Counted from the first letter of the stretch, positions 13,825 to 33,961 are shown. The stretch: DNA of 34,142 nt from Anaeromyxobacter sp. (GCA_025360965.1 JANYBC010000070.1:1-34142); one strand, 5' to 3'. The notes: generated by a model from the letters alone, not told the origin. Program-made: numbers and translations.

Positions 13825-14957
13825 GTCGCGATCACCTCCACCAGCTGCTGCGCCACCCGCTCCGGCGCCCCGGGCTCGCCCAGCCTGGCGCGCACCTCGA
13901 GCAGCCCGGCCAGCTGCTCGGTCCGGGCCGGCCCGTCGGCCATCACCCGCTCCAGCTCTGCGGCCAGCCGCGGCCCGGTGGCGGCGCCCTGGATCAGCTC
14001 GCGCACCACCTCGCGTCCCACCAGCAGGTTGACGAGCGAGTAGTGGGCCACCTTCACGAGCAGCTTGCCGATGACGTAGGTGAGCCCGGAGACCTTGTAG
14101 GTCACCACCATGGGCCGGTGCATCAGCCCGGCCTCCAGGGCCGAGGTGCCGCTCTTCACGAGGGCCCCGTCGCTGGCGCCGACCACCTCCTCGGTCCGGC
14201 CGTCCACCAGCCGGACCTCGAGCCCCGGGTGGGCGGCCAGGTGGTGCGCCAGCAGGGCGCGGTCGAGGGTGGGGGCCACCGGCAGCACGAACAGGGCGTC
14301 GGGGTGCTTGGCGCGGAGCCGCTCGGCCGCGTCGAGCATGGGGGGCAGCAGCCGGCCGATCTCCCCGGGCCGGCTCCCCGGGACCAGCCCGATGATGGTC
14401 CGATCGAGCGGCAGCCCGAGCGCCTGCCGGTAGGTCGGCGGCGGCGCCGGGAGCGGCCGCTCGGCGAACGGGTGTCCGACGAAGCGGGCGTTCACTCCCG
14501 AGCCGCGGTAGGCCTCGGGCTCGAAGGGGAGGATGCAGAGCATCCGGTCGACCACCTTGGCGATCGTGAAGGCGCGCCCGGGGCGCCAGGCCCAGATGGT
14601 CGGCGAGATGTAGTAGACCACCTTGATGCCGAGCTTCTTGAGCCTGGCCGCCAGGCGCAGGTTGAAGTCGGGGAGGTCGACCAGCAGGGCCACCACCGGG
14701 CGCCGGGTCTCGGCGGCCCTCGCCACCCCGTTGAGGATGGCGAGGATGCGCGGCAGGCGCGGCAGCACCTCGACCAGCCCCATGACGCTGATCTCCTCGG
14801 CCGGGTAGAGCGCCTCCAGGCCGGCGGCGCGCAGGGCCGGACCGCCGACACCGAAGGCCTTGACCCCCGGCAGGAGTGCCTGCAGCGCGAGCAGCGCGCG
14901 CGCCGCGTGGAGGTCCGCGCTGGCCTCGCCGGCCACGATGAGGATCTCCGCGCTCAC
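13821..14957 (-). CDS. lpxB: Lipid-A-disaccharide synthase (LpxB)
   Basis: The 378-aa GT19 enzyme condenses UDP-2,3-diacylglucosamine with lipid X to form the lipid A disaccharide. It begins SAEILIVAGEASADLHAARAL, with the conserved GExSxD acceptor block. It continues with FVGHPFAE near residue 165 and LVPGSRPGEIGRLLP near 235. KSGTSALEAGLMHRPMVV is the donor-binding glycosyltransferase-B motif in the C-terminal half. The start codon is GTG at 14957. It is the first gene of the long minus-strand cluster and diverges from the copper/redox module, with 128 bases between starts. Confidence 0.94.
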   Translation of the reverse strand: MSAEILIVAGEASADLHAARALLALQALLPGVKAFGVGGPALRAAGLEALYPAEEISVMGLVEVLPRLPRILAILNGVARAAETRRPVVALLVDLPDFNLRLAARLKKLGIKVVYYISPTIWAWRPGRAFTIAKVVDRMLCILPFEPEAYRGSGVNARFVGHPFAERPLPAPPPTYRQALGLPLDRTIIGLVPGSRPGEIGRLLPPMLDAAERLRAKHPDALFVLPVAPTLDRALLAHHLAAHPGLEVRLVDGRTEEVVGASDGALVKSGTSALEAGLMHRPMVVTYKVSGLTYVIGKLLVKVAHYSLVNLLVGREVVRELIQGAATGPRLAAELERVMADGPARTEQLAGLLEVRARLGEPGAPERVAQQLVEVIAT

Positions 14958-15085
14958 GAGCGGCTTTGTAGCACGGCGCCTGGCCGCCTGCCGCGCCGCG
15001 TCGCGTCGGCGGCTCCTGCGCCGAGACGCTGAACCCTCCTGGCCGCGGGGCGCTCCAAGAGGTGACCACCCGCCACGGAGTGCCC

Positions 15086-15498
15086 ATGTCCCGGACCCGG
15101 ACCCTGATCGCCCTCGTCACCTCGCTCGGCCTCGGCACCGCCGCCTGCTCACGGAGCGAGCCCGCCCCGCCACCGCCCCGCCGGTCCAGGCCGCCCCGGC
15201 GCCCGCCGGCGCGACGCCGACCACCTCGCTGCCGAAGCTGGTCTTCTTCATGAACCCGAACGGCCGCCCCTGCCAGCTGCAGGACCAGGTCCTCGAACAG
15301 CTCGCTCCATCGCTCCAGGGGCGCGCCGAGATCGTCCGCTTCCGCACCACCACCCCCGACGACCTCGCCGTGTTCGAGCGGTTTGGCATCCGCTCGCTTC
15401 CCCAGCTGGTGGTGACCGACGCCGCCGGGCGCGAGCTGCGCCGGGCCACCCCCGGCATCCTCGACGCCGCGCAGGTCCAGCAGCTCCTCTCCCGCTGA
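15086..15498 (+). CDS. Thioredoxin-like lipoprotein (apparent single-base frameshift)
   Basis: An N-terminal lipoprotein signal, MSRTRTLIALVTSLGLGTAAC, starts at ATG 15086 with GGAG 5 bases upstream. The mature domain (LPKLVFFMNPNGRPCQLQDQ and onward, ending at 15498) is in a different frame. The two halves join naturally if one base, probably a G, is missing in the CCCGCCCCGCCACC stretch near 15161-15174, giving a Pro/Ala linker. The C-terminal ~100 residues look like a thioredoxin fold with a single redox Cys (GRPCQ) and a cis-Pro region SLPQLVV. It precedes ccdA by 7 bases, so it may receive electrons from CcdA in the periplasm. The shift may be a sequencing error or a real lesion. Confidence 0.65.
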
Positions 15499-15505
15499 GG
15501 CGACC

Positions 15506-16153
15506 GTGGAGCTGAGCCTCTCATCGACGGCGCTCGCCTTCGGCGCCGGCCTCGCCAGCGTCCTGAGCCCGTGCGTCCTGCCGGTGGTCCCGCTCATCAT
15601 CACCGGGACCGACGACGAGCACCGCTGGCGACCTGCGCTGGTGGTCATCGGCCTGTCGGCCAGCTTCATCGCCATGGGGATCCTCATGGCCCTCTTCGGA
15701 GCCACGGTGGGGCCGCTCATGCCCGGGCTGGAGAAGGTCTTCGCCGCCTTGGTGATCGCCTTCGGCCTGCTGCTGCTGCTCGACGTCAACCTCTTCAAGC
15801 GGCTCACCTGGCTGCAGCGGGTCCAGGTGGCGGGCGGGAGCCGCTGGTCGGCGCTGCTGCTGGGCGCCAGCCTCGGGCTGGTCTGGATCCCCTGCGTCGG
15901 CCCGCTGCTATCGGCGGTGCTGGCCACCGTGGCCACCGACGGGGGGCTCGGCGCCGGCTTCCTGCTGCTGCTGGTCTACTCGGCCGGCTTCGCCGTCCCC
16001 ATGCTGGCGGTCGGCTACGGCTCGCAGGCGCTGCGGCGCCGCATCCGCGCCATCAACTCCCGGCCGCTGCTGGTGCGCTGGGGCTCGGGGCTGCTGCTGA
16101 TCGGCTTCGGCCTGGTGATCCTCCGCAAGGGGATGCTCTTCGCGGGGTTATGA
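15506..16153 (+). CDS. ccdA: CcdA/DsbD-like thiol:disulfide transmembrane electron transporter
   Basis: The 215-aa protein has about six membrane helices and the two redox cysteines of the CcdA family, in SPCVLP (Cys23) and WIPCVGP (Cys130). It moves reducing equivalents from cytoplasmic thioredoxin to periplasmic thioredoxin-like partners that keep apocytochrome c or copper sites reduced. The start is GTG at 15506 with GAGG a few bases upstream. The stop overlaps the ATPase start as ATGA. It is placed between a thioredoxin-like lipoprotein and a copper ATPase, and not far from multiheme cytochrome genes. That context suggests cytochrome c or copper-oxidase maturation. Confidence 0.88.
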
Positions 16154-24840: not shown

Positions 24841-26475
24841 TCAGTAGAGCGAGTAGACCGAGACCAGTGCGTTGACGCCGATCGGGATCGAGCCGCCACC
24901 GCCGCCGCTGACGTCGATGGCGCTCCTCGTCAGCAGCGAGAGGCGCAGGCCGAGGTGGCGGGTCAGCTCCTTCGAGCCCGAGACGTAGAGGCTGAACTCG
25001 TCCTTGTCGGCCCCGAGGTTGGCCTGCTGGTTCCAGCTGAGCCGGCCGATGAGCCGCACCGACTCGACCGGGCGGGCCACCGCCTGCAGCCAGGCGGCGC
25101 GGCCGGTGAGCCAGCCGAGCTCCTCCTGGTAGCCGGCCGAGAGCGAGACCCTGGGCGTGAAGAAGCGTGGCACGCTCACCTCCGGACCGGCCCAGCCTCG
25201 CTCCAGCCCGGAGGCCACGTCGCGGGCACCGCCGCCGGAGATCCCGGCGCGCACCAGGCCGAAATCCCAGGAGGCGTTGACGTCGGCGTGGCGGGAGCGG
25301 CCGGCCCAGGCGAGCGGCGTGAAGGTCTGTGGGGTGAGCAGCTCGCTGTAGTCGAAGGCGCCGGAGATGGAGAGGCGGGCCACCGGCCGGAAGGCCGCCT
25401 CCAGCCGCGCCCCGTCGAGCCCGCCCGGCGAGTGGATCGTGCCGCCGAAGCCGAAGCGGGCGTCGGCGAAGAGGTCGAGCCAGGCCCCGGAGTGGGCCGA
25501 GCCGCCCGCCTGCATCTCGACGCGATCACCCAGCTCGGGTGAACGGACCAGCGCCAGCCGCCCCTCCTGGTGGACCAGCACCCCCTGCCCCAGCTTGCCG
25601 TCCCAGCCCCAGAAGCCGCCGGCGGTGCCGCGCGTGGTGGTGGGGGAGCTGGTGTCGGGCTGCGGCACCAGGCCGCCGAGCAGGCCAGCCGTGAAGGCGC
25701 CGCGGCGCCAGCTCACCGTGGCGCCGTCCATCGAGGTGGCGCCCGGGACGTTCCAGGCCAGCACGCGTCCCGCCGAGATGGAGATGGGACGGCTCTCCGG
25801 CGCCCAGGTGAGCTGCGCCTGCCAGACCACGATGCGGGCCTTGTCGGCGGGCAGGAAGACGGCCCCGGCCGGCTGCGCCGACCAGTACTCGGCCCGCAGG
25901 TCGACGTCGGCTGTGAAGGGACCGAGCGGGGCGCCGTGCAGGGCGGCGTCGACGCGATCGGTGTGGTAGGCGCCGAGGCCGCTGCTCCACCAGCTGACGT
26001 CCGAGAAGACGAACTCGCCGAAGCCGTCGCGCGGCGCCTCGAGCGGCCGGAGCGCCACCGGCTTGGCCTTGGCCTCCACCAGCGCCACCTCGGCGCTGGC
26101 GACCCGCTCGGCGCGCTGGGCAAGCTCCTCGTCGCTCGGGAGCGGCGGGAGCGTCACCACCTTGACCTCGGCGGCGGCCACCCGGGTCAGCTGGACGCTG
26201 TCCCCGGGGTGGGCGCCGACGCCATAGCAGGTGGCGTGGCTGGAGGAGACCGACTCGACCGCGCAGAGCACGGCCTCGGCGCCGCCGCGCACGAGCGACA
26301 ACACCTGGCCCACCTCCAGCCCCTGGTCGGCCCCGGCGTCGAGGTAGGCCCGCGTCCCCGTCGCCTGGACCACGTGGGCCAGCCCTGGGGTCCGGACCTG
26401 CGCCGGCGGCGGCGTCTCGAGCGGACTGGCCGGGGTGGTGGCGGCGAGCGCCAGGGCGAGGAGCGAGGAGAGCAT
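24841..26475 (-). CDS. Predicted outer-membrane beta-barrel protein of the cytochrome operon
   Basis: The 544-aa protein has an N-terminal signal peptide and a small domain (about 30-110) rich in short strands, similar in pattern to FlgT-like or SH3-like modules (AYLDAGADQGLEVGQVLSL). A short coiled-coil-prone stretch follows (DEELAQRAERVASAEVALVEAK region). Then come ~390 residues of alternating hydrophobic and polar strands with many Trp/Tyr/Gly, typical of a 16-strand-or-so barrel. The C-terminus is YSLY, with the terminal aromatic used by BAM substrates. The ATG lies 2 bases after the multiheme lipoprotein stop, so they are probably translationally coupled. By context it may be the porin sheath of a porin-cytochrome conduit, analogous to MtrB or PioB, although I see no clear sequence similarity to those. 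Confidence 0.68.
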   Translation of the reverse strand: MLSSLLALALAATTPASPLETPPPAQVRTPGLAHVVQATGTRAYLDAGADQGLEVGQVLSLVRGGAEAVLCAVESVSSSHATCYGVGAHPGDSVQLTRVAAAEVKVVTLPPLPSDEELAQRAERVASAEVALVEAKAKPVALRPLEAPRDGFGEFVFSDVSWWSSGLGAYHTDRVDAALHGAPLGPFTADVDLRAEYWSAQPAGAVFLPADKARIVVWQAQLTWAPESRPISISAGRVLAWNVPGATSMDGATVSWRRGAFTAGLLGGLVPQPDTSSPTTTRGTAGGFWGWDGKLGQGVLVHQEGRLALVRSPELGDRVEMQAGGSAHSGAWLDLFADARFGFGGTIHSPGGLDGARLEAAFRPVARLSISGAFDYSELLTPQTFTPLAWAGRSRHADVNASWDFGLVRAGISGGGARDVASGLERGWAGPEVSVPRFFTPRVSLSAGYQEELGWLTGRAAWLQAVARPVESVRLIGRLSWNQQANLGADKDEFSLYVSGSKELTRHLGLRLSLLTRSAIDVSGGGGGSIPIGVNALVSVYSLY

Positions 26476-26477
26476 GT

Positions 26478-27989
26478 CTAGTTGTTGGGGATGGCGTTGT
26501 GGCAGCTGGTTGCGCAGCTGGCGGTGCTGCGAATCGGCGGCGACGGGAAGGTGAAGTTGACCGCCGGATAGGGCTTCTCGGACGCCGGCCTGGTGGTGGC
26601 GTGGCAGCTGATGCAGCCGGCCGGGTAGTGGTCGATGCGGCCATAGCCGGAGTCACCTCGGGAATGGGCGGCGACCCTGTTCACCTGCGAGTCGGCGTGG
26701 CACTTGAGGCAGTTGGGGCTGGTCAGCGGCACGGTGCCGGTGAGCGCGTGGCCGGCGTAGAGGTTGAGGATGGCGATGCCGCCGACGGGGCCGTGCCTGG
26801 TGCTGAACCCGGCGATGGCGTTGTGGCAGGTGGCGCACTGCAGCGACGTGAGGTCGGTCCTCACCCCGGTGCCGTGGCACTGGGCGCAGGAGAGCCCGGC
26901 GTGCTTGGTGCCGGAGGCGCGGGGGAAGAGCAGCTCGTGGTTGGCCGGCGCCCCGCTTGCCCCGTCCTTGTGGCAGACCAGGCAGCTGTCGGAGAGCTGC
27001 GGCCCGGCCCAGAGGGCGTTGAAGCCTGCCACCGAGGTGTGGAGCGGCGCCAGCGACGCGGCGCTGCCGTGGATGGCGTTGACGCCTGCCACCGCCCCCA
27101 CCACCACGTCATGGCAGCCGACGCAGGTGGTGGCCTTGAAGTCGGCGACGAAGGTCCTGGGCGGCGTGGTCTTGTTCTGGTCGTGGCAGGTGAGGCAGGC
27201 GCCGCCGGCCGCGCCGGAGTGCGCCCCGCTGCCCACCGTGAACCCGCTGGCGCCGGTGGCGTGGGCCGCCACCCGGACCAGGACCTTGCCGTCCTCGTGG
27301 CAGCGCGCGCAGAGCAGCGACGAGGCCTGGACGGCGGCCGGGGTGGTGCCGTTCCTGACGTAGTCGGGCACCTTGCCGGCGTGGGCCGCGTCGGTCGGCG
27401 CGTCGCTGTGCGGGTGGCAGGATGAGCAGCCGAGCTGCGTGCGATCGCCGGCGACGACGTGGCAGTCGGCGCACCTGGCCACGATGGTGCCGGCCGCGTT
27501 CTGGTGCGGCAGCACCAGGCGGGCGGCGTGGTCGACCCCGATGCCGTTCTGGTGGCAGTGGTGGCAGGCGGCGTCGAGGCTGGTGACGCCGGCGGCGTAG
27601 CCGAGGGTGTTGGCGTTGGCCACGGTGGCGTCGAACCCGTTGCTCCCGGTGACGCCGTTGGCGTTGTGCCAGGCGCTGAATCCGGCCAGGGTGCCGTCAT
27701 GCTGGACGCCGCTCTTGAGCGTCACCGCATGGCAGTTGGTGCAGGTGAAGACCTTGAAGGAGTCGGAGGGGACCGACGTGGTGGCCGAGGTCTTGACGGC
27801 GTGGCAGGCGTTGCAGTCGGCCAGGGCCTGACCCGCCTGGGGACCGTGGGTGTCACCCACGGCGATGGGGAAGTGCTTCGCGTGGGCGACCGCGTCCGGC
27901 ATGGTCAGCCAGGGCGCTTGCCAGGACGTACCGCCACAGGCGGCGAGGAGCAGTGAGGCGGCGGCGATCGACGGGAGCTGGAGCTTCAT
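26478..27989 (-). CDS. Multiheme c-type cytochrome lipoprotein (13 CXXCH plus one CX3CH)
   Basis: The 503-aa protein has a lipoprotein signal with lipobox LAAC (Cys18), then thirteen CXXCH haem-attachment motifs. These include CNACH, CTNCH, CHHCH, CADCH, CSSCH, CARCH, CLTCH, CVGCH, CLVCH, CAQCH, CATCH, CLKCH and CISCH. At the very C-terminus Cys492-His497 reads CATSCH, a CX3CH motif. Additional His residues are scattered between motifs as candidate distal ligands. Lipidation implies anchoring to the outer membrane (periplasmic or cell-surface face). ATGA overlap with the 10-heme gene upstream, and 2 bases to the barrel gene downstream, indicate co-production. It is a candidate terminal or barrel-inserted cytochrome of an extracellular electron-transfer system. 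Confidence 0.9.
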   Translation of the reverse strand: MKLQLPSIAAASLLLAACGGTSWQAPWLTMPDAVAHAKHFPIAVGDTHGPQAGQALADCNACHAVKTSATTSVPSDSFKVFTCTNCHAVTLKSGVQHDGTLAGFSAWHNANGVTGSNGFDATVANANTLGYAAGVTSLDAACHHCHQNGIGVDHAARLVLPHQNAAGTIVARCADCHVVAGDRTQLGCSSCHPHSDAPTDAAHAGKVPDYVRNGTTPAAVQASSLLCARCHEDGKVLVRVAAHATGASGFTVGSGAHSGAAGGACLTCHDQNKTTPPRTFVADFKATTCVGCHDVVVGAVAGVNAIHGSAASLAPLHTSVAGFNALWAGPQLSDSCLVCHKDGASGAPANHELLFPRASGTKHAGLSCAQCHGTGVRTDLTSLQCATCHNAIAGFSTRHGPVGGIAILNLYAGHALTGTVPLTSPNCLKCHADSQVNRVAAHSRGDSGYGRIDHYPAGCISCHATTRPASEKPYPAVNFTFPSPPIRSTASCATSCHNAIPNN

Positions 27990-28876
27990 CTGACACCCCT
28001 ACCCAGCGGCGCCAGCCTCGGCGCGCCGGTTGAGAAGCTGTGACACGAGTAGCAACGATCGTTGCTCGGCGCGAAGCCCGGGACGGACGGGTGCTCCGCG
28101 GGGTTGTGGCACCCGGTGCAACTGGCGGCCGGCGTGGCCGTGCAGGTGAGCGGTCCGGCCGGGATGGGCGGCACGCCGGAGGCGTGGCAGGTCTTGCAGG
28201 AGATCCCGGCGTGCTTGCCCGAGCTGATCTGGAAGCAGGCGTCGTGGGCCTTCCAGGTGCCCGGCGTGAAGCGCCAGGTGGAGTGGCAGCCCCGGCAGTC
28301 GGTGCCGAAGTTGCCGGTGTGCGGGACGGCGGCGGTGGCGGTCCCGTCGTAGTTGGCCTGGTGGCAGGCGATGCAGGCGGTGGTGGGGCGGGAGAAGGCC
28401 CGGTCGCGCCGGTCGCCGTGGCACTGCTCGCAGGGGATGACGGCGTGCCGGCCGGTGAGCGGGAAGCTGGTCCGGCGGTGGGCCTCGGGGCCGAAGCTGG
28501 CCTCCTTCCACGAGCCGGTGTCATGGCACCGATCGCAGCGGGCCCCCATGCGGCGGGCGTGGACGTCGCGGTGGCAGGCCGAGCAGGCCTTGGCCACCGG
28601 CTGGTCGAAGCGTCCGCCCAGGTGGCACGACTGGCAGGTGACCGCGAGGTGGCGGCCGGTGAGCGGGAAGCCGGTCCGGTCGTGGGCGAAGGTGACCTGC
28701 TTCCAGTCCGCGGCGGTGTGGCAGGCGCCGCAGCGGGTCTCGGCGCCGGCGTGGCTGCCGGGGCGAGGGGCGAGATCGATGGCGTTGGTGGCGGCCGGGG
28801 CCGGCGTCGGCCTGGCCGTCGCGGCAGCCTGGGCGGACTGGGCCGCCAGCAGGAGGGCCAGGAGCGTCGCGGTCAC
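27986..28876 (-). CDS. Periplasmic decaheme c-type cytochrome
   Basis: The 296-aa protein has a signal peptide ending near AQSAQA and ten CXXCH motifs: CGACH, CQSCH, CSACH, CDRCH, CEQCH, CIACH, CRGCH, CKTCH, CTGCH and CYSCH. Two copies of a module with the shape WK..F.(H).....FPLTGRH....C..CH appear in its first half and match modules in the upstream 20-heme protein. The start is GTG at 28876, overlapping the upstream TGA. In-frame sequence further upstream is antisense-like and lacks a signal peptide. The signal lacks a positively charged N-region, which is unusual. It is probably soluble in the periplasm, bridging inner- and outer-membrane components. Confidence 0.9.
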   Translation of the reverse strand: MTATLLALLLAAQSAQAAATARPTPAPAATNAIDLAPRPGSHAGAETRCGACHTAADWKQVTFAHDRTGFPLTGRHLAVTCQSCHLGGRFDQPVAKACSACHRDVHARRMGARCDRCHDTGSWKEASFGPEAHRRTSFPLTGRHAVIPCEQCHGDRRDRAFSRPTTACIACHQANYDGTATAAVPHTGNFGTDCRGCHSTWRFTPGTWKAHDACFQISSGKHAGISCKTCHASGVPPIPAGPLTCTATPAASCTGCHNPAEHPSVPGFAPSNDRCYSCHSFSTGAPRLAPLGRGVR

Positions 28877-30693
28877 GGCTGGTACCCCTTGAAGGAGCCG
28901 CGGTGGAAGTCGGCGTGGCACCCCTCGCAGGTGAGCGGCAGCGGCTTGTAGCGCTTCACCGTCAGGCCCTTCCCCACCGTGACCGGCAGGTGGCACTTCT
29001 CGCAGGCCAGCGGCTTGTGCTTCCCCTCCAGCTTGAAGCGGGAGTCGCGCTGGTGATCGAAGCGCAGGTTCTCCTTCTCCTTCCAGCTGACGGCGTCATG
29101 GCAGCGGGCGCAGTCGGTCCCCTTCCCGGGCAGCGCCAGCTGGCCGGCGTGCACGTCGGCGTGGCAGCCGGCGCAGGTGACGGCGAGCGGCTTGTAGACC
29201 ATCGCGCCGCTCGGGCCCGGCCTGTGGCACGAGGCGCAGGCGGCCCTGGCGTGCTTGCCGGCCAGCGCGAAGCGGCTGTCCTTGGCGTGATCGAAGCGGA
29301 CCTTCTTCCAGGACTCGAGACCGTGGCAGGCGGTGCAGCCCTCGGCGTCGGTGCGCGCCTTGAACTGACCGCCATGCAGGTCGCGGTGGCAGGTTCGGCA
29401 GTCGCTGGCGCGGGGGATCTTGAGCAGCGCCAGGCTCGGCTTGATGGGCCGCTTCTGGACCTCGAGCCGCGCCTTGACCACCGCCGGCACCCTGGCCTCC
29501 AGCCGCGGGTCCTTGGGGTGGCAGGCGGCGCAGGCCACGGCGCGGTGCGCCCCCTCCAGCCTGTAGGGGAGCTTGTCGTGATCTTCGAGCTCGAAGCGGA
29601 CCGGCGTGAAGCCCTCAATCCCGTGGCAGCGCTCGCAGGTGCGGGTCGGTGCGGCCGCCCCTGCGGGCGGGGCTGCTGCCGGGTAGGCGATCTGCCCGAG
29701 GTGGGCATCGAGGTGGCAGTCGCTGCAGCGCTCGAACTTCATCGCCTTGAAGACCGCCTTCTCCTTGCCCCACGGCCCGTGGCAGGCCTCGCATCTGGCC
29801 GCCAGGTGGGCGCCGCGCAGCGGGTACCTGGTCTTCTCGTGGAAGGCCTTCTCCTTGGCGGAGCCGCGGAGCTTCTTCCAGTCCCCGGTCCCATGGCAGG
29901 ACTGGCAGTCGGGGCCGAAGCGGCCGAGGTGCGGGTCCTTGTGACAGCCGGCGCAGGTCTGGAAGGGGATCGGCTTGTACTTCGCGAAGAGGGCCGGGCG
30001 GACCGGCGGGGTGCGCGCGCCGAGCTCACCGGGCGGAGGGGCCGGCTGGTCGGCGTGGCACTTGAGGCAGGTGACCTTGAGGTGCTTCCCGTCGAGCTTG
30101 TAGGCGGTCCTGGCGTGATCGAAGCGGGGGAGCTTCCAGGTCTCGGCGCCGTGGCACCTCTGGCAGTCGGCGCCGAGCTGGCCGCGGTGCTCGTCGAAGT
30201 GGCAGGCGGCGCAGGCCGACGGCGCGCCCAGCAGGCTGTCGCGCCCCTTGGCGATGGCCTGGATCACCTCCGGATCGGCGATGTGGCGGGCGTCGTGGCA
30301 TTTGGCGCAGTCGGGCTTGCGGTGCTTCCCCTCCAGCGCGAAGCCGGTGCGGCCATGGTCGAAGCCCTTCTTCCCTCCCGGGCCCCAGTCGACCAGCTTG
30401 GTGTCGCGGCCGGTGTGCTCGTGGTGGCAGGCCTGGCAGCTCCGCTCCTCGGGCTTGAGCCGCCCGTGGAGCCCCTTGCCGGCCTTCATCCTGGCCTGCA
30501 CGTCCTTGTGGCAGGCGAGGCAGTTGTCGGGGCTGAGCTGCTCGCCGGCGGCGTGGCACCTGGTGCAGTTGGACAGCCCCTCCAGCGTGGCGTGCGGCCG
30601 GGAGAGATCGCCAGGCGAGAAGACGTCGGCGCCCGCGCCGGTGGCCCAGAGGATGAGCAGGGAGGCCGCGGCCCGATAGGGGGTGCGCATCAT
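28873..30693 (-). CDS. Periplasmic 20-heme c-type cytochrome
   Basis: The 606-aa protein begins MMRTPYRAAASLLILW, a signal peptide ending near GAGA, and then carries twenty CXXCH motifs spread evenly (about one per 29 residues). A repeated module F(D)H....(F/Y).L.GKH....C..CH occurs at least five times, giving a likely distal His before each haem, as in cytochrome c3/c7-type chains. The ATG at 30693 forms ATGA with the stop of the shifted-frame C-terminus of the oxidoreductase, which shows where the cytochrome really begins. A single uninterrupted reading that joins it to the oxidoreductase is misleading, because the joining ~90 codons lie antisense-like over a better reading frame. It is probably the main periplasmic electron wire or store. 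Confidence 0.9.
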   Translation of the reverse strand: MMRTPYRAAASLLILWATGAGADVFSPGDLSRPHATLEGLSNCTRCHAAGEQLSPDNCLACHKDVQARMKAGKGLHGRLKPEERSCQACHHEHTGRDTKLVDWGPGGKKGFDHGRTGFALEGKHRKPDCAKCHDARHIADPEVIQAIAKGRDSLLGAPSACAACHFDEHRGQLGADCQRCHGAETWKLPRFDHARTAYKLDGKHLKVTCLKCHADQPAPPPGELGARTPPVRPALFAKYKPIPFQTCAGCHKDPHLGRFGPDCQSCHGTGDWKKLRGSAKEKAFHEKTRYPLRGAHLAARCEACHGPWGKEKAVFKAMKFERCSDCHLDAHLGQIAYPAAAPPAGAAAPTRTCERCHGIEGFTPVRFELEDHDKLPYRLEGAHRAVACAACHPKDPRLEARVPAVVKARLEVQKRPIKPSLALLKIPRASDCRTCHRDLHGGQFKARTDAEGCTACHGLESWKKVRFDHAKDSRFALAGKHARAACASCHRPGPSGAMVYKPLAVTCAGCHADVHAGQLALPGKGTDCARCHDAVSWKEKENLRFDHQRDSRFKLEGKHKPLACEKCHLPVTVGKGLTVKRYKPLPLTCEGCHADFHRGSFKGYQP

Positions 30694-30965
30694 CAGTGGA
30701 GACCGTACCCCAGATAGAGGGCGACGAGGATATGGGCCGTGAGGGCCAGCACCAGGAAGACCGCCAGGGTGGCGTGGAAGAGCCGCCAGCTGCGCAGCAG
30801 CCGTTTGAGCGAGCCGTAGAAGCGGAGCTGCCAGCGCAGCCGGGTCAGCTTGATGAGCGCCGCCTGCAGGTCGGGGTAGACGTGAGGGTGCTGGAGGCGC
30901 CGTCTCAGGGCGAAGAGCCGCAGCCGGGTCGCCGCCACCTCGAAGGGGAAGCGGAGGAAGAGCAT
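30693..30965 (-). CDS. C-terminal b-haem helix of the oxidoreductase, in the shifted frame
   Basis: This 90-aa reading (ATG 30965) is Arg-rich, then has one membrane helix containing FHATLAVFLVLALTAH, a His-X13-His pair matching the pair in the preceding frame. It ends exactly at the ATGA that starts the 20-heme gene. I read it as the displaced C-terminus of the oxidoreductase (reading in through SGHSFLMLFLRFP). If the shift is real, it could instead be made as a separate small subunit from its own ATG. Confidence 0.6.
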   Translation of the reverse strand: MLFLRFPFEVAATRLRLFALRRRLQHPHVYPDLQAALIKLTRLRWQLRFYGSLKRLLRSWRLFHATLAVFLVLALTAHILVALYLGYGLH

Positions 30966-32913
30966 CAGGAACGAGTGTCCCGACCGGCGCGGTGAGGCGA
31001 TCCAGCAGGGCCGCGCCGCCGCTGGCCCCCTCCAGCTCGGGCGCCGCGAAGGCCCGCAGCCGCTCGAAGTTGCCGGTCAGGTCCTCCAGCTCCTCGGCCT
31101 CGTCGCCGTGGGCCGGGACCAGGCCGTAGATGTAGCGGCCGATGAGGCCGGTGGAGACCACCACCGCCAGCGCCGCGTAGGTGCCGCTGGCCAACTGGTT
31201 GTTCATCTGGAAGGCGGCGTGGAAGGCGATCACCAGCGGGCTCATGAAGCCGACGAAGGTGTGGAAGTCGAGCCAGCCCTTGATGTGGCCCCAGCCGGTG
31301 AGCGCGCGGCTCCGCTTGCGGACCGCATAGAAGAAGTTGGAGAGCATGAAGGCGGTGGCGACGATGCCGACGCCGTGCCCCCAGCTGCCCGCCGAGCGCA
31401 GCGACTTGTGGAGGGCCGAGAGCTTCCGCTCCGGGCGCGCCAGCGGGTAGTACTCCCAGCCCTTCCAGGCCAGGTAGGCCAGCACCGAGATCCCGGCCAC
31501 CGCGTAGAGGATGCGCAGGGCGAGGAGCCGCCGCCGCTCCTGCCTGTTCCTGGAGGCGCGGGGCCGCCTGCCCGGCTCCCCGATGATGGCGGGCCCGTAG
31601 GCGGGCGTCTGGGCGTGGAGCGCCTCTCCGTGGAAGCGCCGCATGGAGACGCCGACGCTGGCGAGGAACTCGACCGGCAACTCGCCGCCGATGTTGACGA
31701 TGACGAAGTCGTTGGGGAGGCGCACCGCCTTGCCGCCGGCGTCGAGGTGCACCGAGCCGTCGTCGACGGCTTTCACCTGGGAAGGGAGGAAGGCCGTGAT
31801 CTTCCCGGCGCCGATGAGCGCGGCGATCCTGGTGCGGTTGGCCTCGCGGCAGCTGGCGAACTCGGCGTTCCGGTAGGAGATGCTCACGGCGGCATTCGAC
31901 TCGGTGGCCAGCTGCATGGCCGCCTCGACGGCCGAGTCGCCGCCGCCGACCACCAGCACCTTGGCCCCGTTGTACTGCTCCGGCTCGGTGAGCGCGTAGA
32001 CCACCTTCTCGCTCTCCTCGCCCGGGACCCCCATCTTGCGGGGCGTGCCGCGACGCCCGATGGCCAGCACCACCTTGGCGGCGCTGATGGGGCCGGCGCT
32101 GGTCTTGACCGTGAAGCGGCCGTCGGCCCCCTCGAGCCCGGTCATCTTCACTCCCTGCTCCACGGTGAGCCCGGCCTTGTCGATGATCTTCTGCCAGCCG
32201 GCCAGCAGCTCCTCCTTGGTGATGAGCGCCTTGCCGAACTTGCCGACCAGCGGGAGGTCGACCGGCTCGGTCATGGCCACCTTGCGCCGCGGGTAGTGGG
32301 CCACGGTGCCGCCCACCGTCCCCTGCTCGAGCAGCCGGTGCTCCACGCCGTGGGCCTTGAGCGCCAGCGCGGTGGCCAGCCCGGCCGGGCCGGCCCCGAC
32401 CACCACCACCGTGGAGCCCTTGGGCGTGATCTCGGCCAGGTGGTCGGCGGCCTGGAGCCCCTGGGTCACGGCGTTCTTGATGAGGCCCATGCCGCCCAGC
32501 TCGCCGATGACATGGACCCCGGCGCGAGAGGACTCGAAGTACTGGTCGACCTCGGGCAGGTCGATGCCTCGCTCCAGCGAGCCGAAGACCAGCTTGATGG
32601 CGTTGACTGGGCACTCGGCGGCGCAGCGGCCGTGGCCGATGCAGTGGTCGGCGTGGATCAGCCTGGCGGCGTGGTCGATGATGCCGAGGATGTCGCCCTC
32701 CGGGCAGGCCTTGAGGCAGGAGAGGCTGCCGATGCAGACATCCGGGTCGATGATGGGGTGGAGCGAGCGGGCCAGGTGCTGCTTCTTGGCCACCTTCTGC
32801 TCGAAGACCTCGGCGTCCCGTCGCTGTCGCCGGCCGCGGCGGATGTAGCCGAGCGCGCCGCCAAGCAGCGCCACCGCGAGGGAGGAGTAGACGATCAGCG
32901 ATCCCTGGTCCAT
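30693..32913 (-). CDS. Inner-membrane Fe-S/FAD/NAD(P)/cytochrome b-type oxidoreductase (apparent frameshift near 30.98 kb)
   Basis: Starting at ATG 32913, the protein has an N-terminal helix (7-23) and two ferredoxin-like motifs (Cys60/66/70 and Cys91/97/101, each lacking the usual second Cys). An FAD Rossmann site VVGAGPAGLA follows (171-180), then a second nucleotide site VLVVGGGDSAVEAA (about 318) as in thioredoxin-reductase-like enzymes. Four or so membrane helices come next, with HTFVGFMSPLVIAFH, a His-X13-His b-haem pair. This frame then has no sensible end. Skipping one base near 30980-30990 leads into the frame of 30693-30965, which supplies a last helix with another His-X13-His pair and an ATGA link to the cytochrome gene. 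Likely role: exchange of electrons between NAD(P)H or ferredoxin, quinone and the periplasmic cytochromes. Confidence 0.75.
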
Positions 32914-33255: not shown

Positions 33256-33327
33256 GGCCCCATCGTCGATCGGTCAGGACGCGAGCCTTTCAAGCTTGCA
33301 CGGCGGGTTCGATTCCCGCTGGGGTCA
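33256..33327 (+). tRNA. tRNA-Glu (anticodon TTC)
   Basis: The 72-base cloverleaf has acceptor GGCCCCA/TGGGGTC (one G-T pair) and a D-arm GTC/GAC. Anticodon stem CGAGC/GCTTG closes CTTTCAA with anticodon TTC, and T-stem GCGGG/CCCGC is perfect. The discriminator is A and no CCA is encoded. It lies 9 bases after the tRNA-Glu(CTC) gene and shares its promoter. Its 3' end is exactly where sequence composition changes and a radical SAM gene is cut off. Confidence 0.92.
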
Positions 33328-33961
33328 TCGTGGTGGCGGCGCGCAGCGGCAGGCCGGTGCGCTTGCGGGCGGTGCGGATGAGCGCCGCGAAATCGTCGCG
33401 CAGCGGCATCAACTCCAATTCAGATTTCGGCACGGGATAGCCGTCGCGCCCGCGCATGGTGATGTCGATATGGATGGAGATTTCCGTCAGCCCGCCCTTG
33501 ACCATCAGCGTCTCGAGCAGGCCGGGCTCCAGTCGGAAGCGGTCGCCGTGCGTCATCACCATCGGGATGACGCCGATCTGCCGGGCGTAGCGCAGGATGG
33601 CGGTGAGCTCCTCGACCGGCCGCAGGGTGACCTCGCCGTCGGTGATCTGCACATTGGCTTTGGGGCCCAGGTGTGCGCGCAGCGCGTCGAGCTGGGCCAG
33701 CACGCCGGCCAGCGGCATGTTGGGAATCTGGTTGGCCTCTTTACCGAGATAGCAGCCGGTGCAGGAAAAATCGCAGCGCGGGTTGATGCCGATGGTGGCG
33801 CCGCAGCCGGTGGATTGCCGGCCAAAGCCCTGCATGGGATAGTCGCGCAGCACCTGCGGAATTTCCCGCCAACGCGCATCAAGGATGGCGAGTTTCTCGG
33901 CATCCACGGGATGGCGCACGATGCGCCACAGGGATTTCAGTGAAAGCGGCTGGCCGTACAT
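33290..33961 (-). CDS. Radical SAM protein, C-terminally truncated at the tRNA-Glu junction
   Basis: The 223-aa reading starts MYGQPLSLKSLWRIVRHPVD and has the radical SAM cluster motif CDFSCTGC (CX3CX2C, about residues 63-70). A GE-like TDGEVTLRP follows (about 107-115), then a later TEISIHIDIT strand. It stops being protein-like after RAATTMT. The last nine codons are read antisense through tRNA-Glu(TTC), and the stop at 33290 lies inside that tRNA. Family members normally continue for at least 100 residues beyond this point. GC content and codon choice are lower than in the rest of the window. It sits just downstream of the DUF547-like gene end. Confidence 0.75.
   Translation of the reverse strand: MYGQPLSLKSLWRIVRHPVDAEKLAILDARWREIPQVLRDYPMQGFGRQSTGCGATIGINPRCDFSCTGCYLGKEANQIPNMPLAGVLAQLDALRAHLGPKANVQITDGEVTLRPVEELTAILRYARQIGVIPMVMTHGDRFRLEPGLLETLMVKGGLTEISIHIDITMRGRDGYPVPKSELELMPLRDDFAALIRTARKRTGLPLRAATTMTPAGIEPAVQA
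33322..33330. other. Composition and gene-truncation junction at the tRNA-Glu 3' end
   Basis: The radical SAM gene's ...ACGATGACC runs directly into the reverse complement of the tRNA 3' end (TGACCCC). The bases TGACC are shared by both sides. This is what a tRNA-targeted integration, a deletion or a chimeric assembly join would leave. Confidence 0.6.

Follow-up and report, generated by a model that had tools for sequence, protein, structure and literature searches.

How could a soil bacterium carry electrons from its cytoplasm across both membranes to the outside, and can a single operon encode the whole route? This question is raised by a locus of Anaeromyxobacter sp. lying on a stretch of 34,142 nucleotides (GCA_025360965.1, JANYBC010000070.1:1-34142; hereafter the window), which is one whole contig of a 3.83-Mb draft genome in 259 contigs. 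At 24841-32913, on the minus strand, five tightly packed genes, all present, encode a putative inner-membrane oxidoreductase, three multihaem c-type cytochromes and a predicted outer-membrane beta-barrel. We suggest, with a probability of roughly 0.6, that this operon encodes a trans-envelope electron conduit that resembles the published, little-studied PCC3 porin-cytochrome systems and is equipped with its own cytoplasmic entry enzyme. Anaeromyxobacter is widespread in soil and the subsurface. The only porin-cytochrome cluster that we found described for it comprises two genes, a porin and one cytochrome of 12-14 haems (PMC4245776), and the present locus would supply a candidate for the whole path between cytoplasm and exterior.

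Layout of the operon

The genes follow one another through the junctions TGATG, GTGA and ATGA and then a 2-base gap, in agreement with an earlier note on this DNA, which had described five consecutive minus-strand genes joined by overlaps or 2-base gaps. The products are as follows.

30693..32913, minus strand: inner-membrane oxidoreductase (OXR) with an N-terminal transmembrane helix, two 4Fe-4S motifs, a flavin adenine dinucleotide (FAD)/NAD(P) domain and a five-helix transmembrane di-b-haem domain; frameshifted
28873..30693, minus strand: 20-haem c-type cytochrome of 606 amino acids, with 20 CXXCH motifs and a Sec signal recognised by eye; proposed periplasmic wire
27986..28876, minus strand: 10-haem c-type cytochrome of 296 amino acids, with 10 CXXCH motifs and a GTG start at 28876; proposed barrel-inserted wire
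26478..27989, minus strand: 13 (+1)-haem lipoprotein cytochrome, assigned from its haem motifs and a LAAC/G lipobox; proposed to be surface exposed
24841..26475, minus strand: outer-membrane beta-barrel of about 22 predicted strands with a small N-terminal beta domain (AlphaFold2, Foldseek)

The three cytochromes hold 20, 10 and 13 CXXCH motifs, the last with an extra CX3CH, and the haem counts of 20, 10 and 13+1 given previously thus stand. Shuffled versions of the proteins contained a mean of 0.1-0.2 haem motifs and a maximum of 2-3, which rules out a chance origin, and none of the other reading frames of the window carried two or more.

Conservation of the gene set

Among 60 near relatives, 28 have the oxidoreductase and 25 the barrel, for the most part at shared locations, and oxidoreductase matches occur in 56 of 195 Myxococcota genomes. 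A contig scan gave 38 myxobacterial loci, from Anaeromyxobacter (including the isolate A. oryzae Red232) and other Myxococcota, for which completeness was counted by reading the neighbourhoods; presumably A. dehalogenans 2CP-C and 2CP-1 and strain Fw109-5 carry the locus too. The earlier note had named, as a finding that would speak against a conduit, a barrel or oxidoreductase never found with the cytochromes. Instead they do co-occur: the oxidoreductase, the 20-haem and 10-haem cytochromes and the barrel stand together at 28 of the 38 loci, while four loci are cut by contig ends and the remaining six comprise one with no detected barrel and five variants. At nearly every locus the genes for the barrel and the 10-haem protein are in synteny, and protein distances among the four core genes, computed without a control gene, correlate at 0.80-0.95.

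Haem number scarcely varies in the two core cytochromes. Twenty CXXCH motifs are present in 25 of 27 aligned sequences of the larger protein, the two exceptions being a segment cut from a 30-haem fusion and a 23-haem Emticicia homologue, and all 28 homologues of the smaller one have ten. Beyond the motifs, 21 His residues are kept in at least 96% of the 20-haem alignment, and the 10-haem alignment shows nine invariant His and a tenth at 79%; about one extra conserved His per haem is the pattern that would be expected of bis-His haems. At three loci (L045, L088 and L091) a single 30-haem fusion protein takes the place of the two, its 20- and 10-haem parts following each other without an intervening signal peptide. 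The Sec-like signal of the 20-haem cytochrome points to a periplasmic location.

The distal, lipoprotein cytochrome is unlike this core in that its haem number varies from 8 to 51: homologues inside the operon have 8-14 haems, and a longer homologue beside the operon has 27-51, most often 29. Across loci its N-terminus shows a lipobox followed by an FPI...H stretch, and at some loci (e.g. L048 and L050) it was not seen nearby. Opposite the extra CX3CH of the present copy (CATSCH, residue 492), a same-genus orthologue has a canonical CXXCH, and because of this match 14 haems is likely the ancestral number. We also note that the isolate Myxococcus sp. RHSTA-1-4 (L064), of a genus known as aerobic, has the whole operon, with an 11-haem lipoprotein.

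The barrel had no match in Pfam or NCBIfam (E 0.1) or among PDB sequences. Since no sequence family was at hand, it was tested by structure. An AlphaFold2 model built from a 31-sequence alignment (predicted local distance difference test, pLDDT, 84.2; predicted template-modelling score, pTM, 0.65) has a small beta domain at its N-terminus and then about 22 long strands, and the barrel that had been predicted from sequence did not fail in the modelling. Foldseek related the model to outer-membrane porins and ushers at probability 1.00, with template-modelling scores of 0.2-0.5 by query length, modest values that a difference in barrel size would lead one to expect.

The oxidoreductase

Pfam recognises in the oxidoreductase a 4Fe-4S dicluster domain (Fer4_10, 3.7e-11) and Pyr_redox_3 (9.5e-39), with a weak, sub-threshold match to Ferric_reduct. 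Its nearest NCBIfam neighbour is YpdA, at 151.9 bits against a cut-off of 339.9, a score far too low for membership among the bacillithiol disulfide reductases, which was rejected. The motifs, all on the minus strand, are these.

32608..32736, minus strand: two 4Fe-4S motifs, CIGSLSC...CP and CIGHGRC...CP (Fer4_10; coordinates counted by hand from the translation)
32380..32397, minus strand: FAD-binding GAGPAG (Pyr_redox_3; motif position)
31930..31959, minus strand: NAD(P)-binding VLVVGGGDSA (Pfam domain; motif position)
31219..31275, minus strand: first WX3HX13H b-haem motif
30732..30788, minus strand: second WX3HX13H b-haem motif, in the shifted frame

In this protein the second Cys is missing from both 4Fe-4S motifs; the corresponding residues are Ser and His in 57 of 60 matched homologues and Cys and His in three, so that the His is kept in all 60. 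A hydropathy profile shows a single helix at the N-terminus and five towards the C-terminus. Of these five, the third and fifth bear the WX3HX13H motifs and the fourth bears TGXXG; both b-haem motifs are present in 20 of 20 extracted homologues. In most Myxococcota homologues the FAD/Fe-S module shares its polypeptide with the membrane domain. The membrane domain would work much like that of NADPH oxidase and ferric reductase, with two b-haems bound through HX13H on helices 3 and 5, a flavin donor on one side and the acceptor on the opposite side. It differs from NADPH oxidase in that the flavoprotein is of the YpdA/thioredoxin-reductase type with added 4Fe-4S centres, and in that the acceptor would be a multihaem wire.

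The earlier note had counted five genes, and the gene set holds, but the oxidoreductase is not intact: its frame breaks near 30,975 (region 30970-30985). The N-terminal frame runs to about 30984 and the C-terminal frame from about 30983 to a stop at 30695-30693, so that the last b-haem helix lies in a different frame ending at 30693 and, as assembled, the N-terminal frame continues into that of the 20-haem protein as a 1346-amino-acid open reading frame. In nearly all relatives the oxidoreductase is a single open frame of about 730-750 amino acids, and for this reason a programmed frameshift was rejected. Because the relatives are intact, we take the break to be an assembly error or a recent lesion. 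That the frameshift is real and the locus is decaying in this genome seems unlikely: it does fall within an otherwise conserved gene, but every other gene of the operon is intact, the genome is a draft of 259 contigs, and a draft relative (L065) likewise shows split frames in the operon.

Split relatives outside the Myxococcota

Two metagenome-assembled genomes of Acidobacteriota and plasmid pEMTOL02 of Emticicia oligotrophica carry the parts of the operon as separate genes: a two-b-haem protein of 281-316 amino acids, an Fe-S/FAD protein of 440-463 amino acids, a 23-haem cytochrome, a second cytochrome of 20-40 haems and a barrel. Profile comparison of the membrane domain with the stand-alone proteins (hhalign 99.9%, E 9e-37), in which SGVVG or SGVIG replaces TGXXG, and of the barrel with its counterparts (98.1%, E 8e-14) supports homology of both. 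The Fe-S/FAD protein of one of the Acidobacteriota (L099) has a close relative in 17 of 199 genomes of its phylum. Plasmid searches returned only the Emticicia cluster and small cassettes of metal-resistance type; those on plasmids of Alpha- and Gammaproteobacteria (L101, L102, L104, L105 and L136) pair a 2Fe-2S protein with a related membrane protein. Most of them also encode a small c3-type cytochrome and no barrel, and several lie near copper or heavy-metal genes.

Comparison with known systems

Judged by published plan and motif signature, the operon appears to encode a PCC3-like conduit. The PCC3 plan consists of a porin, a variable extracellular multihaem cytochrome, a periplasmic cytochrome of about 21 haems and an inner-membrane protein with two WX3HX13H motifs (PMC5566968, PMC10734462); the inner-membrane signature, shared with PCC4, is five transmembrane helices with WX3HX13H on the third and fifth and SGXXG on the fourth (He et al., 2017, PMC5566968), and the extracellular cytochrome has 10-35 haems in the Gallionellaceae (PMC10734462). 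The present operon has a predicted porin, a candidate for the extracellular cytochrome with very variable haem number, a probable periplasmic cytochrome (20 haems in Myxococcota, 23 in the split versions) and the five-helix domain with both motifs and an SGXXG-like TGXXG, and the components correspond in their listed order of porin, extracellular, periplasmic and inner-membrane protein. It departs from PCC3 in four respects: the membrane protein carries a fused 4Fe-4S/FAD/NAD(P) module (about 740 amino acids in all, against about 300 for the stand-alone protein), there is an extra 10-haem cytochrome, separate and conserved, the barrel has about 22 predicted strands rather than up to 42, and the host phylum is Myxococcota. 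PCC3 has been reported from Alpha-, Beta- and Gammaproteobacteria and is found in the genomes of iron oxidisers (PMC5566968); the split versions in Acidobacteriota and Bacteroidota suggest that such conduits are more widespread than this. The arrangement, which the earlier note had not recognised as a described system, is hence known in its overall plan and differs in the fused flavin module and the separate 10-haem subunit. Among the open-licence papers searched we found no description of it in Myxococcota, and an NAD(P)H module fused to the b-haem protein and a separate 10-haem subunit were both absent from the published descriptions that we found.

Other systems are less close. PCC4 likewise has a porin, several periplasmic cytochromes including one of 10 haems, an inner-membrane protein with the same motifs and, in its subgroup II, an Fe-S gene adjoining that protein's gene, but it lacks an extracellular cytochrome, and the haem numbers of its cytochromes are 4, 5 and 10 (PMC5566968). 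MtrCAB, MtoAB and PioAB share the decahaem wire and barrel, and Mtr has a surface cytochrome to match the proposed one, whereas here the barrel is of another family and the operon has no CymA/NapC-type entry protein. The 10-haem protein scores 19.3 bits against the DmsE/MtrA family (cut-off 192.2), too weak for membership, and a search of the genome for the MtrB/PioB family (TIGR03509) gave no match, which is weak evidence, the search controls having been silent too. With the Geobacter Pcc complex (OmbB-OmaB-OmcB) and the two-gene Anaeromyxobacter pcc cluster the operon, as we read it, has in common a barrel with periplasmic and surface cytochromes, and it differs from them in gene content and haem numbers.

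Proposed electron path and alternatives

In the conduit that we propose, NAD(P)H would reduce the FAD of the pyridine-nucleotide-oxidoreductase domain, and electrons would pass through the two 4Fe-4S centres to the two stacked b-haems on transmembrane helices 3 and 5, and so across the inner membrane. From there they would reach the 20-haem periplasmic cytochrome, the 10-haem cytochrome seated in the barrel, the surface lipoprotein (14 haems here) and finally an extracellular acceptor, which might be an Fe(III)/Mn(IV) oxide, humics or some partner cell. What we infer here is that the proteins form one complex, that NAD(P)H is the donor, that electrons flow outward, that the lipoprotein is surface exposed and that such an acceptor receives them. 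Outward flow from NAD(P)H, leaving a negative cytoplasm, is favoured, and inward flow from Fe(II) to NAD(P) is not. More tentatively, and short of favouring it, we consider that the entry enzyme may be a quinone-independent single polypeptide, working much as NADPH oxidase does, that feeds cytosolic NAD(P)H electrons through atypical His/Ser-substituted 4Fe-4S sites into a continuous 30-haem wire leading out of the cell. If electrons do enter from NAD(P)H, extracellular electron transfer would here proceed without passing through the quinone pool.

The conduit reading, including the unusual flavin/b-haem entry module, draws strength from synteny, conservation of haem ligands, the predicted barrel, the lipobox and the fusions of the 20- and 10-haem proteins. 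Several points weigh against it. As first put forward it is weakened by a plan already known as PCC3 and by the frameshift that the entry enzyme, the product of the first gene, carries in the window. A few oxidoreductase homologues (L086 and L093, frames of 843-983 amino acids) have no multihaem cytochrome that we could find nearby; the AlphaFold2 model of the oxidoreductase, at pLDDT 65, is too weak for use; the seating of the 10-haem protein in the barrel is argued by analogy with MtrAB; and both PCC3 clusters of Sideroxydans ES-1, the best-studied PCC3 host, are downregulated on Fe(II) (PMC8788666).

Of the other ways to read the operon, the nearest keeps the conduit and has the b-haem domain draw on the (mena)quinol pool, with the FAD/4Fe-4S module serving as a second entry, as a regulator or as a site fed by ferredoxin or thiols. 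The PCC3/PCC4 protein, which has no flavin module, has been proposed to be quinone-active (He et al., PMC5566968), the FAD/Fe-S protein is a separate gene in the split clusters, and there is the Pfam match to Ferric_reduct; we nonetheless think this rather unlikely, given that most Myxococcota homologues carry module and membrane domain on one chain, an arrangement that implies intramolecular electron transfer. A conduit running inward would oxidise an outside donor, whether Fe(II), Mn(II) or some other, and deliver the electrons to the cell, a role that has been hypothesised for the PCC3 of iron oxidisers. This reading would fit the occurrence of PCC3 in those genomes (PMC5566968) and the reversibility in principle of multihaem conduits. 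It is very improbable here, since an NAD(P)-linked endpoint would make flow from Fe(II) strongly uphill on general thermodynamic grounds and Anaeromyxobacter are known as reducers of Fe(III), Mn(IV) and U(VI) (PMC4319575). Least probable of all, the cytochromes might store electrons as a capacitor or buffer periplasmic redox state, the barrel being an ordinary channel with no cytochrome inside; such a role has been suggested for large cytochromes of A. dehalogenans (PMC2330069) and for PCC3 (PMC10734462), but it sits poorly with the synteny of barrel and 10-haem genes and with the lipobox of the distal cytochrome.

Other features of the window

Elsewhere in the window, a radical-SAM open reading frame (33290-33961, minus strand) overlaps at its 3' end a tRNA-Glu gene (33256-33327, plus strand) and is possibly truncated or frameshifted. 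At 14860-16153, on the plus strand, lie genes for a thioredoxin-like protein and a cytochrome c biogenesis protein of the CcdA/DsbD type.

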